Source: a virus. From it: a DNA stretch of 46,011 nucleotides. The notes below the pieces were generated by a model. That model had not been told where the DNA came from, did no database searches, and was given only the letters and a program-made list of their open reading frames with translations. Numbering within the stretch: the first letter of the stretch is position 1; every line of letters starts with the position of its first letter. The DNA is taken from the IMG/VR virus record IMGVR_UViG_3300025147_000019, positions 1-46,011 of that record; one strand, written 5' to 3'. Positions 14,728 to 22,526 of the stretch are shown here, piece by piece. Made by a program: the position numbers and the translations under genes.

Positions 14728-16461
14728 TCAAGTATTAGTAATTTGAAATAGCTTGTGCGTACCATCGCGGAGTGACTGTTCTTCTTCTGACATTTCATAT
14801 CCAAGTTTTTCGAGGAAATCATAAACCATATTTAAATTTTCATTGTTGTAATGTTGGTTATTCCAGTTATAATAATGTTCTCTCTTCGACTCAATTGCTA
14901 AATAGGTTGCAATAAGTAAGTGTTGTTCTGGCTGAGCAGTAATTTTAGGGGCAAAATCATCGAATTTCCATTCTGCATCTTCTTCAATCTTTATATTGAG
15001 AGCTTCAGAGAAGTCATCATAATCAAGATCATAACTTCCATCTAACATACCTCTTAATAAATATTCAATGATTATGCTTATACACTTTTTAGCTCGAGTG
15101 CTAGAATAATCAAGAATAAAGGAACGTCTGATCTGATATGCTTGTTTGGATATTTCTTCAAGAGCAGCTTGGTTCTCTCTAAGTTCTTTCTGTTTTTCAT
15201 CAGATACGTAACTATTAAAGGTCTTTTCTGATATCTCTGTTTTCTTGTATAAGTCAATAGAACCATAATTTGATACTTTGAAAAAATATTCTTTAGTATC
15301 AGTGTCGTCAGGTTCAGTAATATCTTCCGGCTTAGAATTATAGTAGTTTTTGACATATTGCAGTCCTTTTGTATCTTCTACTTGTGTTGCGAATTTCTTC
15401 AGTTCAGTAATTATTAATGCCAATCTTACTTCACTTTTTTCCTTATCGATAGCGCTTTGTAATTCCCATTTAAAATTAGGTGTACCGATTTTTTCAAGTA
15501 CCTTATTTCGTAATTCAACATCATGAATTTTTTCCAGCTCAGCATAATCCATCAAAGTCCCGCCTCTTTCAACTGATTTGCGGAATTTATCACTATCAAA
15601 TTCAAGAAGCTTTACTCTACGGCTTACAGTTGTATATGAGAATCCAGTTTTACTGGAGATATCACCAACAGTATCACCAAGGTCCATCATCATTTGAATC
15701 CCTTGAGCTTGCTCATAGATAGTCAGGTCGCTCCTCTGCATATTCTCGAGTAGCATTGTACCAACTTGTTGACGAAGGTCCATATTTGATATTGAACATG
15801 GTACTTCTGTCAATCCTGCGAGTTTTGCAGCTGCAAGACGACGGTGACCAATAACAGCGATGTATCCCATTTCCTCCTGTTGTTTTGGACTATCAGCGCC
15901 GACACCTGTGATTTGAGAAAACCAAGGAACTACTGTTAGGTTTTGTAATATCCCACTATTTTTTATACTTTGTGCTAATTCGGTAAGGTCACCGAGATTC
16001 TTACGAGGATTATTATAATGGGAATGAATCTTTGTAATATCAATATTTTGAATCATGTTTTTGCTCCTTTCAATTTCGTTATTCACTTTATTCTTTTCCT
16101 CCTTCTGCCATTCAAAATCCATTGTGTATCCGTTCTGTATTGCTTCTTGGAGACTGTTAAACATATCAACTCCTACTTCCCACCATGCAAAACTACCATC
16201 TGGATATATAATTTCATCTACACAATGCCGTTCATATGGAGTTGATGGATTATCTGAATATCCAACCATTCTGGCAAGCTTACAGTTTTCATCTTCACGT
16301 CTAGTTTTTTGTTCCAGGTACTTTTCGCACCAGTGACAGTCCATGTTTGTTCCTGCTAATCCGCAACTGTTTGTTCCATCTTCATATTCCCAAGCCATTG
16401 CAAAAATGCAGCTGTATGTTCGTGAAATCTTCTTATCAGAGCAATCGATGCATTCACTCAT
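14728..16461 (-). CDS. ParB-like protein with extra Cys-rich N-terminal domain
   Basis: 577 aa. From residue 136 (MIQNIDITKI) it is a ParB/Spo0J-like protein: NPRKNLGDLTELAQSIKNSG box I, GHRRLAAAKLAGL box II, then an HTH region (TVGDISSKTGFSYTTVSRRV) and a long acidic C-terminus. Residues 1-135 are a separate Cys-rich module (C4, C7, C18, C33, C42, C45). An AAAGGAG 7 nt before M136 makes a 442-aa short form (14728..16056) likely. A ParB-like transcription or partition role is possible; no ParA is seen. Confidence 0.75.
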   Translation of the reverse strand: MSECIDCSDKKISRTYSCIFAMAWEYEDGTNSCGLAGTNMDCHWCEKYLEQKTRREDENCKLARMVGYSDNPSTPYERHCVDEIIYPDGSFAWWEVGVDMFNSLQEAIQNGYTMDFEWQKEEKNKVNNEIERSKNMIQNIDITKIHSHYNNPRKNLGDLTELAQSIKNSGILQNLTVVPWFSQITGVGADSPKQQEEMGYIAVIGHRRLAAAKLAGLTEVPCSISNMDLRQQVGTMLLENMQRSDLTIYEQAQGIQMMMDLGDTVGDISSKTGFSYTTVSRRVKLLEFDSDKFRKSVERGGTLMDYAELEKIHDVELRNKVLEKIGTPNFKWELQSAIDKEKSEVRLALIITELKKFATQVEDTKGLQYVKNYYNSKPEDITEPDDTDTKEYFFKVSNYGSIDLYKKTEISEKTFNSYVSDEKQKELRENQAALEEISKQAYQIRRSFILDYSSTRAKKCISIIIEYLLRGMLDGSYDLDYDDFSEALNIKIEEDAEWKFDDFAPKITAQPEQHLLIATYLAIESKREHYYNWNNQHYNNENLNMVYDFLEKLGYEMSEEEQSLRDGTHKLFQITNT

Positions 16462-18496: not shown

Positions 18497-18844
18497 ATGG
18501 TATTTCTTGATCGTAAATCTAAAAAGGTTCTAAAGGCTGTTATTAAAGCTAGAAATAAAATAAATTTTGTTAATGGGTCTGAGCTGCTTGTACCGCTTTT
18601 ACCTAAAATGCCTATTAATTTAATCAATGAATCTCTTTGGCATCTCCACGATATAAAGTTACTAGTATGTGAAGGTGGTATCGATGAAATCTATAACATA
18701 TCCATTCCTTACGAATCTGTTAATCGTAGGGAATTTATATGGATTAAATTTAAGCAATTCATTTTTAAAAGTATATTAACACCTATTTTGGTTTCTATTA
18801 CCACTACTCTTATAGCTCTTTGGGTAAAGGGATTTTTTAAATAG
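18497..18844 (+). CDS. Hypothetical 115-aa membrane-anchored protein
   Basis: GAGGTG 6 nt upstream. Residues 1-75 look like a winged-helix-type fold (KVLKAVIKARNKINFVNGSE, LINESLWHLHDIKLLVCEGG); residues 90-110 (KSILTPILVSITTTLIALWV) are a membrane helix. It is on the plus strand with its own promoter, so it is likely expressed in the lysogen. A superinfection-exclusion or sensing role would fit but is only inference. The end overlaps the next minus-strand gene by 8 bp. Confidence 0.65.
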   Translation: MVFLDRKSKKVLKAVIKARNKINFVNGSELLVPLLPKMPINLINESLWHLHDIKLLVCEGGIDEIYNISIPYESVNRREFIWIKFKQFIFKSILTPILVSITTTLIALWVKGFFK

Positions 18845-18965
18845 CGCCAACAAGTTTTAGCATGATTAAGGTTGTTACTACACTAATTGTGATAGTTGCC
18901 AAGTAACTGAAAATTACTTTATTCTGGCGATCTATTTTGGTATTAAACTCGTCTTCGTTTTGCAT
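18837..18965 (-). CDS. 42-aa single-span membrane protein behind Spo0A-like boxes
   Basis: ATG 18963-18965 behind AAAGGAG. It begins MQNEDEFNTKIDRQNKVIFS and then has a membrane helix (VIFSYLATITISVVTTLIML). The upstream 100 bp hold a pair of Spo0A-like boxes (19039-19055). Small single-span peptides in this position can be exclusion factors or toxins, but nothing identifies this one. Confidence 0.55.
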   Translation of the reverse strand: MQNEDEFNTKIDRQNKVIFSYLATITISVVTTLIMLKLVGAI

Positions 18966-19038: not shown

Positions 19039-19055
19039 TTCGACACCATTCGACT
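19039..19055 (-). promoter_or_regulatory. Tandem Spo0A-like boxes (two)
   Basis: On the minus strand: AGTCGAA (19055-19049, one mismatch) and TGTCGAA (19045-19039, perfect), with starts 10 bp apart. The 16-bp core GTCGAATGGTGTCGAA also occurs at 21572-21587. TGTCGAA is the 0A-box consensus, and 10-bp tandem spacing is that of the abrB operator of Bacillus. The nearest gene downstream is the small membrane gene at 18837. Confidence 0.55.
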
Positions 19056-19065
19056 TCTTGTGAAC

Positions 19066-19308
19066 TTATGCCGATATGTTCTCATTTGAGACCACTTCAT
19101 TAAAAAAAAGCTCCTTAAATGTTATTTGTTCACCTTTGTTTTCAAAGAATAAGATTATACGAAGTGCTTCTTCAATATTAAAAGGTCTTGCACCATTGAT
19201 TTTATTTGACATAGACACTGTTGAGCAACATATTACCTTAGACATTTCAAAATCAGTTATTCCGTATTTAGCTTTTAATTCTCTTATACGATGGAATTTT
19301 TTAATCAC
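19066..19308 (-). CDS. Cro-like HTH protein (DUF739-like)
   Basis: 80 aa from GTG 19306-19308, 5 nt after AAGGAGGTGG; the upstream ATG at 19342-19344 has no RBS and lies in the operator. HTH: FHRIRELKAKYGITDFEMSK then CCSTVSMSNKINGARPFNIE, followed by a short C-terminal tail. It is the first gene of the early operon, divergent from the repressor, so a Cro role is likely. A third operator-like repeat lies inside its 3' end (19077-19094). Confidence 0.8.
   Translation of the reverse strand: MIKKFHRIRELKAKYGITDFEMSKVICCSTVSMSNKINGARPFNIEEALRIILFFENKGEQITFKELFFNEVVSNENISA
19077..19094. promoter_or_regulatory. Operator-like repeat O1 inside the cro-like gene
   Basis: TGTTCTCATTTGAGACCA contains the perfect palindrome TCTCA-TT-TGAGA. 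It matches O2 at 16 or more of 18 positions. Confidence 0.55.
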
Positions 19309-19335
19309 GCTTACCACCTCCTTTTTGAAATGTTG

Positions 19336-19353
19336 TGTTCTCATTTGCGACCA
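19336..19353. promoter_or_regulatory. Operator-like repeat O2, overlapping the early promoter
   Basis: TGTTCTCATTTGCGACCA, next to the -10 of the minus-strand early promoter. A second 7-bp inverted pair, TTGCGAC (19345-19351) and GTCGCAA (19367-19373), brackets that -10. Confidence 0.65.
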
Positions 19354-19440: not shown

Positions 19441-19457
19441 GTTCTCAAATGTAAACA
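19440..19457. promoter_or_regulatory. Operator-like repeat O3
   Basis: TGTTCTCAAATGTAAACA shares the left half TGTTCTCA with O1 and O2 but has a weaker right half. It lies just after the -10 of the repressor promoter, where it could give autorepression. Confidence 0.55.
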
Positions 19458-19489: not shown

Positions 19490-19720
19490 ATGGCTAGTGA
19501 AATTTTCGCAAACAGAGTAAGAGGTTTAAGAGAAGATAAAGGTATGGGGTTAAGACAGCTGGCAACAGAGTTAGGTATAGGCCACAGCTCTCTCTCCAAC
19601 TATGAACACTGTAAGAGGGTACCGGATATTTATACATGTAAAATATTTGCTGATTATTTTCAAGTTTCATGCGATTATCTCATTGGAGCAACCGATGATC
19701 CAACACCGACAAGGAGGTAA
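19490..19720 (+). CDS. Short CI-like repressor (XRE HTH)
   Basis: 76 aa, RBS AGGAGC. A full XRE HTH (FANRVRGLREDKGMGLRQLA, TELGIGHSSLSNYEHCKRVP) and a short FQVSCDYLIGATDDP end typical of this class. It lacks a LexA-like self-cleaving peptidase domain, so induction probably needs an antirepressor (the ORF6N protein is a candidate) rather than RecA-driven cleavage. Its stop codon overlaps the RBS of the integrase, so the two are in one operon. Confidence 0.8.
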   Translation: MASEIFANRVRGLREDKGMGLRQLATELGIGHSSLSNYEHCKRVPDIYTCKIFADYFQVSCDYLIGATDDPTPTRR

Positions 19721-19724
19721 CACT

Positions 19725-20954
19725 ATGCCTAAACAAAAAAATCCTAATGGCCAAGGAAGTTATACCAAACTAAAAGATGGACGTATTAAATGGAAACAAA
19801 TGATTGATGGTGATCTGCGCCAAATTACAGCCAGGACACCAAAAGAGTTGCAAGAGAAAATTAAAGATGTTGCTGGACTTCCAATAATTAAAGTAAAAAT
19901 AACTGTTGCTGATTGGTTTGAAAAATGGCTTAATATATATGTAGAACCATTAAAAAAACCAGCAACTTACGAGCAATATAAATATTTATGGGAGCAACAT
20001 ATTAAACCTGAAATAGGAAAAAAGAAACTATCAAGTATAAAAAAGTACGATATTCAACAAATAATAGCTGAAATGAATAAGAAAACTAAACAAGTCAGAA
20101 GGAAAAATAAAGAAACAAAGGAATGGGAAACATACGATTCCGGTGAAAAGTTAAGCACCTGGACAATGAAACACGTTAGAAAAGTTATGAACATTGCATT
20201 TACAAAAGCAGTTGACGATAAAGTTATAGCTGAAAATCCAGTTTGCAAAATAGAGATACCAAACAAACAAGCCAAGCCAAGAAAGACACTCAAAACATCA
20301 GAGTTAAAAATACTATTCGAGTATGCAAAAAAAACACGCTGGTATTGGGCAATGAGATTTTTACTAGTAACTGGACTTCGCAGAGGTGAGCTTCTAGCTC
20401 TTAAATGGTCAGATATCGACTTTAAAGATAAAAGAATTACAATTGATGAATCAAATAGTGCATCAGGCATTGGAGATACAAAATCCGCAGAGTTGCATTA
20501 TGTTCCTTTATCAGATAGAGCTATCTATTATTTGAATATGCAAAAAGAAATGTTAATCAATGAAACAAATCCAATATTGTTTAATGAAGATCTTAAAAAA
20601 ATAGACTTAATATTCCCATCTGAAAAAGGCACTTTATTAAAACCGGATAGTTTTAATAGTGCAATAGATAGAATTAATTTAAAAGCCAATATACATGTAA
20701 CTCCACATATGTTTAGACATACTTTCGTTTATATGTCTAAAGGGTTATTAACTAGATCAGAATTGCAAGAAGCTTTAGGACATGACGAATCTACAACAAC
20801 TGAAGATATATATGGAACTATGTTGTCTGATACTCAAAAAGTTGCTAGTAAAATTGATCAAGCATTTAATGATCTAGATAATGAAATGGATAAAATAGAA
20901 GAAAAAAAAGAAGGAAAAGTTATACAGTTGTTTCAAAAGAAAAGGAAAGTTTAA
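19725..20954 (+). CDS. int: Phage integrase, tyrosine recombinase
   Basis: 409 aa from ATG 19725-19727, directly behind AAGGAGG; the frame is open further upstream but only as overlap with the repressor. N-terminal AP2-like arm-binding domain (GQGSYTKLKDGRIKWKQMID), SAM-like core-binding domain (60-170) and catalytic domain: R219 in TGLRRGE, H328/R331 in HMFRHTF, H353 in LGHDES, Y363. This is the Tn916/lambda-type layout. It ends 20 bp before the arm sites of attP, the usual arrangement. Confidence 0.92.
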   Translation: MPKQKNPNGQGSYTKLKDGRIKWKQMIDGDLRQITARTPKELQEKIKDVAGLPIIKVKITVADWFEKWLNIYVEPLKKPATYEQYKYLWEQHIKPEIGKKKLSSIKKYDIQQIIAEMNKKTKQVRRKNKETKEWETYDSGEKLSTWTMKHVRKVMNIAFTKAVDDKVIAENPVCKIEIPNKQAKPRKTLKTSELKILFEYAKKTRWYWAMRFLLVTGLRRGELLALKWSDIDFKDKRITIDESNSASGIGDTKSAELHYVPLSDRAIYYLNMQKEMLINETNPILFNEDLKKIDLIFPSEKGTLLKPDSFNSAIDRINLKANIHVTPHMFRHTFVYMSKGLLTRSELQEALGHDESTTTEDIYGTMLSDTQKVASKIDQAFNDLDNEMDKIEEKKEGKVIQLFQKKRKV

Positions 20955-20974
20955 GAATATTACGTTTTAAAATA

Positions 20975-20998
20975 TTAGGTACAAATTAGGTACAAATT
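20975..20998 (+). repeat. Integrase arm-type sites, int side
   Basis: Two direct repeats TTAGGTACAAATT (20975-20987 and 20986-20998) with 11-bp period, next to the int stop. Copies recur on the other side of the core at 21209-21250. Confidence 0.6.
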
Positions 20999-21005
20999 GC
21001 AAAAT

Positions 21006-21039
21006 ATAAGCGACTTACAATTCTCTGCAAGTCGCTTAT
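21006..21039 (+). terminator. Hairpin after the integrase gene
   Basis: The arms ATAAGCGACTT (21006-21016) and AAGTCGCTTAT (21029-21039) are perfect 11-bp complements around a 12-nt loop, followed by TTTC. It is probably the terminator of the repressor-int operon; the U-run is short. Confidence 0.6.
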
Positions 21040-21044
21040 TTCAA

Positions 21045-21090
21045 TGGTCAGAGTGACAAGATTTGAACTTGCGACCCCCTGCACCCCAAG
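21045..21090 (-). other. attP: attP core: 3' half of a tRNA-Pro(GGG) gene
   Basis: Read on the minus strand, this 46-bp stretch is the 3' half of a tRNA: anticodon loop TTGGGGT (GGG, proline), stem GCAGG, variable GGGTC, T-arm GCAAG-TTCAAAT-CTTGT, acceptor strand CACTCTG, A73 and CCA. The match breaks down in the 5' side of the anticodon stem, so it is not a full tRNA. Integration into a tRNA-Pro gene with this 3' half would restore the tRNA. Confidence 0.85.
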
Positions 21091-21208
21091 TATTACTCCT
21101 TAATTATATGCAACTATAATAGTAGTTAACAATGTTTAATCTATTAGGGTTACAAATAACGGTTTCAAATGGAACCACGTTGTTATGTAAACTAAATAGT
21201 AATAAATA

Positions 21209-21250
21209 TTAGGTACATTTTAGGTATTAGGTTTATTTTAGGTACAAATT
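21209..21250 (+). repeat. Integrase arm-type sites, distal side
   Basis: TTAGGTACATTT (21209-21220), TTAGGTATTA (from 21220) and TTAGGTACAAATT (21238-21250), the same repeat and orientation as next to int. Together with 20975-20998 they flank the attP core. Confidence 0.55.
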
Positions 21251-21262
21251 TGCGACCACTTG

Positions 21263-21484
21263 CTAATCTGAAGCACCTATATATATAATATACTTTGCAA
21301 GGGTAAGTTGTTCAATTATTAAACTCTCATATCTAATAAAGCTGCTTAAACCTTCTTTGCCTAGCATTTTTCTTATGTCATTTTCTTCTTCTAAAATTTT
21401 GATATTCAACTCTTGATATTCATGGCATGCTGTTGTTATTTCTTCGCACTTATCCATTATGAATTCTTTTTCTGATTTGCCCAT
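21263..21484 (-). CDS. 73-aa helical protein driven by a promoter with Spo0A-like boxes
   Basis: ATG 21482-21484 behind AAAGGAG; the longer open frame to 21589 would read through the promoter and is rejected. The protein is acidic and almost all-helical (MGKSEKEFIMDKCEEITTAC..., NIKILEEENDIRKMLGKEGL). No family is recognised. Its position beside attP marks it as accessory. Upstream are a near-consensus promoter and three 10-bp-spaced 0A-like boxes, so expression may follow the sporulation state of the host. Confidence 0.6.
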   Translation of the reverse strand: MGKSEKEFIMDKCEEITTACHEYQELNIKILEEENDIRKMLGKEGLSSFIRYESLIIEQLTLAKYIIYIGASD

Positions 21485-21529
21485 TAATATTCTCCTTTTA
21501 CTGCAAATAGAACATACGTTCGTATAGTT

Positions 21530-21558
21530 ATTATATGCTTCGTTAAACTGTAAATCAA
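21530..21558 (-). promoter_or_regulatory. Sigma-A promoter of 21263..21484
   Basis: On the minus strand: -35 TTGATT (21558-21553), 17-bp spacer, -10 TATAAT (21535-21530). Confidence 0.75.
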
Positions 21559-21571
21559 GATAAATATTTCT

Positions 21572-21598
21572 TTCGACACCATTCGACATTATTCAACA
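21572..21598 (-). promoter_or_regulatory. Three tandem Spo0A-like boxes
   Basis: On the minus strand: TGTTGAA (21598-21592, one mismatch), TGTCGAA (21588-21582, perfect) and TGTCGAA (21578-21572, perfect), each 10 bp from the next and separated by TAA and TGG. They end 13 bp before the -35 of the promoter at 21530-21558, roughly -49 to -75. The first pair has the same TAA spacer as the known abrB 0A boxes. Confidence 0.65.
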
Positions 21599-21745
21599 TT
21601 TGCCTCCTTTACTAATGATTTACATAATGTAGATTTATTTAAATAATACTACCTGATACGTAGAATGTCTACATGATTAGTACTAATACAGCGAATTATG
21701 ATATAACTATGGTACAATCTTCCTATCCTATAGGAGGATATACCC

Positions 21746-21958
21746 ATGATTAAAATTTATTTATCCGAAATACTCGGACGTAAAAAGTTGACTCAATTAT
21801 ATATAGTAAAGAAAACAGGTATAAGACCAGGCACAGTAAATGCATATTATCATGAATTTATTAAACATGTAAATTTAGATCATTTAAATAAGATGTGTGA
21901 AGTTCTTGGGTGTAGACTTGATGAATTGATTGAATACATACCAGACGATAAAAAATAA
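21746..21958 (+). CDS. XRE-type HTH regulator
   Basis: 70 aa, RBS TAGGAGGATATACCC, preceded by an extended -10 TGGTACAAT. The whole protein is one HTH domain (LSEILGRKKLTQLYIVKKTG, LDHLNKMCEVLGCRLDELIE) with the LDELIEY end of small Cro/CI-like proteins. It is transcribed alone and followed by a terminator, so it is a separate regulator in the lysogenic region. Confidence 0.75.
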   Translation: MIKIYLSEILGRKKLTQLYIVKKTGIRPGTVNAYYHEFIKHVNLDHLNKMCEVLGCRLDELIEYIPDDKK

Positions 21959-22001: not shown

Positions 22002-22526
22002 TTATTGAGAAACAATTGATATCATATTCGTTTTATAATCAGCTTTTGCTTCAACATATTCGGTAACAACACCACCAAATGAATTCTTTCCCCTATATTT
22101 CATAATAATAGTAACGCTATCATCTTTATTATTAGTAAACCTTGTATCAACATGTTTGAAACTATCAGGATCATTCATGTTATCTTTGATTAGTTTAACT
22201 AATTCTTTACAACTTCCATCCCACGGACTAAATAAAGCATCAACCCATATCTTATGATCAGTAACTTTTTGCACCTCAGCATTTATTTTATCATCTTCAG
22301 CTTTTTTAGCTATTTCAGCAGGTGAAAGTGTTGGTTTAGGTGTTGGAGCAACCGTAGATGCGGATTGAGACTTAGCTTCTTGAATTGTATTCATATTATT
22401 AGATACTGTATTTGAACTATTTTCATCTCCTGTTACAGCACTAATAACACTAATTAAAAAAAATAATGCAATTATCCAAAACCAAACCTTTTTATAAATA
22501 GGTTTCTTTTTAATTATTTCTATCAT
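22002..22526 (-). CDS. Membrane-anchored exported protein, likely lysogenic conversion gene
   Basis: 174 aa, RBS AGGAGGT. A basic N-terminus (MIEIIKKKPIYKKVW) and one membrane helix (FWIIALFFLISVISAV, 16-31) precede an S/T/N/P-rich linker (STVAPTPKPTLSP) and an extracellular domain (80-174, e.g. LVKLIKDNMNDPDSFKHVDT and MKYRGKNSFGG). No lipobox is seen. Similar domains occur in Firmicute genomes outside phages. Expressed on its own from the accessory region, so it could change the lysogen's surface. Confidence 0.65.
   Translation of the reverse strand: MIEIIKKKPIYKKVWFWIIALFFLISVISAVTGDENSSNTVSNNMNTIQEAKSQSASTVAPTPKPTLSPAEIAKKAEDDKINAEVQKVTDHKIWVDALFSPWDGSCKELVKLIKDNMNDPDSFKHVDTRFTNNKDDSVTIIMKYRGKNSFGGVVTEYVEAKADYKTNMISIVSQ

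Follow-up and report, generated by a model that had tools for sequence, protein, structure and literature searches.

In the abrB operator of Bacillus subtilis, 0A boxes stand head-to-tail, 10 bp apart. The core of the box, TGTCGAA, is experimentally established, with G2, C4 and G5 as contact bases, and the DNA-binding domain of Clostridium difficile Spo0A reads TGTCGAA too (PMC3485338). Direct control of a virus by Spo0A is already known from lytic phi29-like phages; it has been established at the early promoter A2c of phi29 (Meijer 2005, as related in PMC9437464). The phi29 A2c promoter carries the tandem TGTTGAA-AAT-TGTCGAA. An earlier, sequence-only reading of the present DNA likewise stated that phi29 has its early promoters controlled by host Spo0A. 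We found no direct Spo0A operator described for a temperate phage in the searchable literature, a body of work that lies mostly outside subscription journals.

The DNA studied here, referred to as the window, is a virus contig of 46,011 nucleotides; its genes include those for terminase, portal, capsid and primase. It carries two arrays of 0A-like boxes which, we believe, form a probable pair of Spo0A operators in a temperate phage.

Two head-to-tail arrays and their counterparts elsewhere

Array 1 (21572-21598, minus strand) consists of three head-to-tail 0A boxes with a 10-bp period. Read on the minus strand from 21598 to 21572 it is TGTTGAA-TAA-TGTCGAA-TGG-TGTCGAA, with boxes at 21598-21592, 21588-21582 and 21578-21572 that start exactly 10 bp apart and spacers of TAA and then TGG; direct reading thus confirmed the three minus-strand boxes that had been claimed. 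Two of them match the Spo0A core perfectly, while the first has C4 replaced by T, a change at a contact base. Array 2 (19039-19055, minus strand), which the sequence-only reading did not mention, has two head-to-tail boxes, AGTCGAA-TGG-TGTCGAA, one perfect and one differing from the core at position 1 only. It precedes a 42-aa probable membrane ORF (18837-18965, minus strand), and no clear promoter was found for it. Both arrays are intergenic with the same 10-bp spacing, and they share an identical 16-bp core, GTCGAATGGTGTCGAA.

The immunity region encodes a Cro-like early regulator (19066-19344; phrog_3, E 4.3e-5) and early genes on the minus strand and, on the plus strand, a short CI-like repressor (19490-19720) with an HTH but no peptidase domain, the integrase gene, and a 70-aa HTH_26 gene of Cro/CI type (21746-21958) that is divergent from array 1. 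Three putative CI/Cro operators were found in this region, one (TGTTCTCATTTGAGACC, 19077-19093) 21 bp from array 2 and the others at 19336-19352 and 19441-19457.

To see the arrays against other genomes, triple arrays with at most two mismatches were sought in 148 Clostridia genomes and, as a control, in 97 genomes of a class outside the Firmicutes, the one containing a Gastranaerophilales genome. The Clostridia gave 22 matches in 12 of the 148 genomes, against 3 for the reversed motif, and the control class, which was unmatched to the Clostridia set in base composition, gave none in 97. To our knowledge, the control class lacks Spo0A. Three Clostridia loci had further features of note: a four-box array between divergent HTH genes, possibly in a mobile element (L296:1491-1527), and, in two genomes, 0A arrays near seemingly related small host genes of 94 and 98 aa (L294:521-547 and L298:1491-1527).

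A pattern scan of IMG/VR recovered phi29-like phages, recognised by their terminal protein, in which the array precedes the early operon. The raw counts, 42 loci at 10-bp spacing and 47 at the 11-bp control spacing, were set aside as evidence because the control equalled the signal. Loci at 11 bp are mostly simple tandem repeats with near-identical spacers. A cleaner class, in which all three boxes are exact and the spacers unrelated, is conspicuous at 10 bp, by inspection only. Five other phages have in common a promoter of the form [TTCGACA-N3]x3-N11-TATAAT-like before small genes (L180:109-135, L182:12296-12322, L195:5989-6015, L196:9120-9146 and L197:213-239); at L180, L195 and L196 these genes are 56-59 aa long and have an integrase or recombinase nearby. 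By eye, none of the five N11 promoters has a -35 element, so Spo0A may act there as an activator.

The best surviving alternative to Spo0A is a phage-encoded HTH regulator, unrelated to Spo0A, that would read the whole 16-mer. The phage encodes several HTH proteins, and both the 16-mer and its TGG spacer are identical in the two arrays, an identity that could reflect recent duplication or indeed a protein reading all 16 bp. However, such proteins usually bind inverted repeats, whereas the arrays repeat directly, every 10 bp, and have a Spo0A core, and the same boxes recur with varied spacers in unrelated phages and Clostridia genomes. Furthermore, the CI/Cro-type operators of this phage have a different sequence, TGTTCTCATTTGNGACC, and occur only within the immunity region; for their different motif we rejected the arrays as CI/Cro operators. 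Given these points, we consider a phage regulator of this kind unlikely.

Surroundings of array 1 and the weight of the tandem arrangement

Array 1 ends 13 bp before the -35 of a predicted sigma-A promoter, TTGATT-17-TATAAT (21530-21558, minus strand; 10 of 12 positions matching), a gap that direct reading upheld as described earlier. The -35 lies at 21558-21553 and, after a 17-bp spacer, the -10 at 21535-21530. Downstream is a 73-aa ORF (21263-21484, minus strand) with the Shine-Dalgarno sequence AAAAGGAG. This promoter may drive the 73-aa gene, as had been proposed; the window holds 29 promoter-like sites against 21 expected, so that the hexamers alone are not significant. Array 1, lying between divergent genes, may act on either one. 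A further element, likewise absent from the earlier account, is a LexA-type SOS site (GAACGTATGTTC, 21510-21521; consensus from PMC4234289) within this promoter, overlapping the predicted transcription start of the 73-aa gene. It is the sole perfect GAACN4GTTC in the window, and about 8e-4 such sites would be expected by chance in 90 bp.

The 73-aa protein is acidic (pI 4.7) and was modelled from its single sequence as one long helix (pTM 0.46). Its match to DUF6809 (18.5 bits) falls under the Pfam cut-off of 27, and among 23 loci with DUF6809 genes neither a LexA site nor a tandem array was seen, so a general link of such genes to either element was rejected. Searches of phages and IMG/VR returned no close relatives of the 73-aa gene or the integrase region, nor were relatives of the arrays found, the best integrase matches found having 24% identity only, and 245 Clostridia genomes likewise held none. 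An antirepressor role for the 73-aa protein is a guess. Nearby, at 22002-22526, is a 174-aa probable membrane-anchored protein whose PHROG matches are to superinfection exclusion.

Could the repeats of array 1 simply be coding sequence? They would then belong to a 14-aa leader, MLNNVEWCRKKYLS (21599-21555), or to the N-terminal end of a longer, 108-aa form of the 73-aa ORF. A strong Shine-Dalgarno sequence, AAAGGAGG, does lie 3 nt before the ATG at 21599, a promoter-like TAGACA-17-TATTAT stands upstream on the minus strand (21671-21643), and the frame 21263-21589 is open. A 10-bp period is nevertheless at odds with codons, no comparable start or Shine-Dalgarno sequence accompanies array 2, and the 73-aa start has a good Shine-Dalgarno sequence of its own, with the weak DUF6809 match covering the 73-aa version. 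We therefore think a coding origin very improbable.

Single boxes carry no meaning, as they are about as frequent as chance predicts (110 with at most one mismatch in the window, against 104 expected). The tandem arrangement, in contrast, is far above chance. When pairs with at most one mismatch in all were sought in the window at spacings of 7-30, every pair fell at spacing 10, apart from the spacing of 20 that follows from the three boxes of array 1. Chance would give about 1e-4 perfect pairs and 3e-7 such triples, and none of 100 shuffles of the window reproduced the arrangement. Applied to related phage loci totalling 1.73 Mb, the same pair search found 2 pairs at spacing 10, no different from other spacings. 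Chance similarity without function accords with the frequency of single boxes, but since tandem arrays orders of magnitude over expectation occur twice in one phage, both times between genes, we regard it as more improbable still.

The phage is temperate, as the sequence-only reading held: besides cI/cro it has a tyrosine integrase (19726-20954, plus strand, likely start 19726) and an attP (20966-21250) in which arm-type repeats, TTAGGTACAAA, at 20966-20998 and 21200-21250 flank a core corresponding to a tRNA-Pro 3' end (about 21043-21088). A second tyrosine recombinase, XerC/XerD-like, is encoded far from attP at 4751-5752. Helically phased direct repeats near attP might recall an integrase arm-type or other recombination site, yet good arm repeats lie on both sides of the core, array 1 lies some 480 bp away from it and array 2 about 2 kb off, beyond int; with the real arms found, we rejected array 1 as an arm site and give the whole idea almost no credence.

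Host and proposed regulation

The nearest terminases (52-58%) are from Thermosediminibacterales, Caloramator, Desulfotomaculum, Pelotomaculum, Brevibacillus and Paenibacillus, among others. No exact host tRNA match for the att site was present in the genome contigs searched; the nearest, with 3 mismatches, came from two Clostridia genomes of one family. Of 12 genomes that carry the closest related phages or the closest attB tRNA, ten encode Spo0A_C; the other two are draft metagenome assemblies. The Caloramator Spo0A aligns to the Bacillus DNA-binding-domain structures 1fc3 and 1lq1, the latter a complex with DNA, with a 22-aa helix stretch unchanged, and a perfect box precedes Caloramator spo0A itself. 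The host is probably a spore-forming, Clostridia-like bacterium.

Given the matching core, the 10-bp head-to-tail geometry, the enrichment in Clostridia, the recovery of phi29-like phages and the presence of Spo0A in most hosts of relatives, Spo0A is a well-supported candidate for the reader of the arrays. We think it likely that both arrays are operators for host Spo0A~P that tune two minus-strand, lytic-direction transcripts beside LexA and CI/Cro sites. In our model, Spo0A molecules would line up head-to-tail along one side of the helix. On array 1, at about -49 to -75, Spo0A~P would modulate transcription of the 73-aa gene next to attP, from a promoter that LexA probably keeps off until DNA damage occurs; on array 2 it would tune the lytic-direction segment that runs after cro into the 42-aa membrane gene and an ORF6N gene, with a CI/Cro-type repressor probably sitting next to it. 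As a LexA-type site adjoins array 1 and a putative CI/Cro operator adjoins array 2, each array appears to be paired with another switch, and each site would thereby couple a prophage switch to the sporulation state of the host. Based on the phi29 precedent, it is more likely that Spo0A would restrain lytic growth as cells begin to sporulate; from its position array 1 could instead be activating.

The proposal that this temperate phage senses sporulation through Spo0A thus stands as regards its lifestyle and its Spo0A-type arrays, while binding, the direction of regulation and the 73-aa gene as target are what we infer. Its further suggestion, that an accessory gene is what is regulated, seems too narrow: array 2, taken with the LexA-type site and the operators of CI/Cro type, indicates a role at the lysis/lysogeny switch and not just at such a gene.

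If this model is correct, a prophage can tie its induction or its accessory genes to sporulation, with a bearing on phage survival in spores and on the timing of lysogen induction; two Spo0A-type clusters suggest that the phage consults the spore-formation decision of its host before acting. More broadly, it may be a recurrent feature of temperate Clostridia phages to have direct Spo0A operators at small integrase-adjacent genes and so to read sporulation together with SOS (LexA) and CI, the window being a two-operator example and separate phages sharing the fixed N11 promoter in which 0A boxes replace the -35; on this generalisation we are evenly divided.

Comparison with described systems

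The principle of carrying sites for a developmental master regulator of the host is shared with phages of Alphaproteobacteria, in which CtrA sites serve lytic deferment (PMC9437464); the regulator and the hosts differ. A prophage gene that responds to Spo0A is sunA (sublancin) of SPbeta, where AbrB and Rok, both under Spo0A, are key (PMC6391423); here, Spo0A-type boxes lie within the phage itself. The head-to-tail geometry is like that of abrB and other Spo0A-regulated host promoters, although the present array is viral and has three boxes.

LexA-controlled phage switches include the GIL01-type use of host LexA and LexA-controlled antirepressors. The phage described here resembles them in its LexA-type site at a small-gene promoter and its CI without a peptidase domain; it differs in having Spo0A-type boxes in addition, and the 73-aa protein is not recognisably akin to known antirepressors.

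The phage also encodes a 576-aa protein with a ParB_N domain (14728-16461), noteworthy in that phi29 relies on the ParB (Spo0J) of its host for spore entrapment; parS-like sites in the window are at chance level only.

The locus resembles the A2b and A2c promoters of the phi29 family (Salasmaviridae) in that a phage of spore formers carries TGTTGAA/TGTCGAA boxes in tandem, 10 bp apart and oriented with transcription, close to promoters of early genes. In contrast, phi29 has a strictly lytic life cycle and boxes that overlap its core promoter, whereas array 1 lies upstream of a near-consensus -35, a geometry unlike both phi29 A2c and the N11 promoters, and the present phage is temperate, with LexA- and CI/Cro-type operators adjoining its boxes. 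We believe that the two arrays probably show the phi29-type use of Spo0A in a new form.
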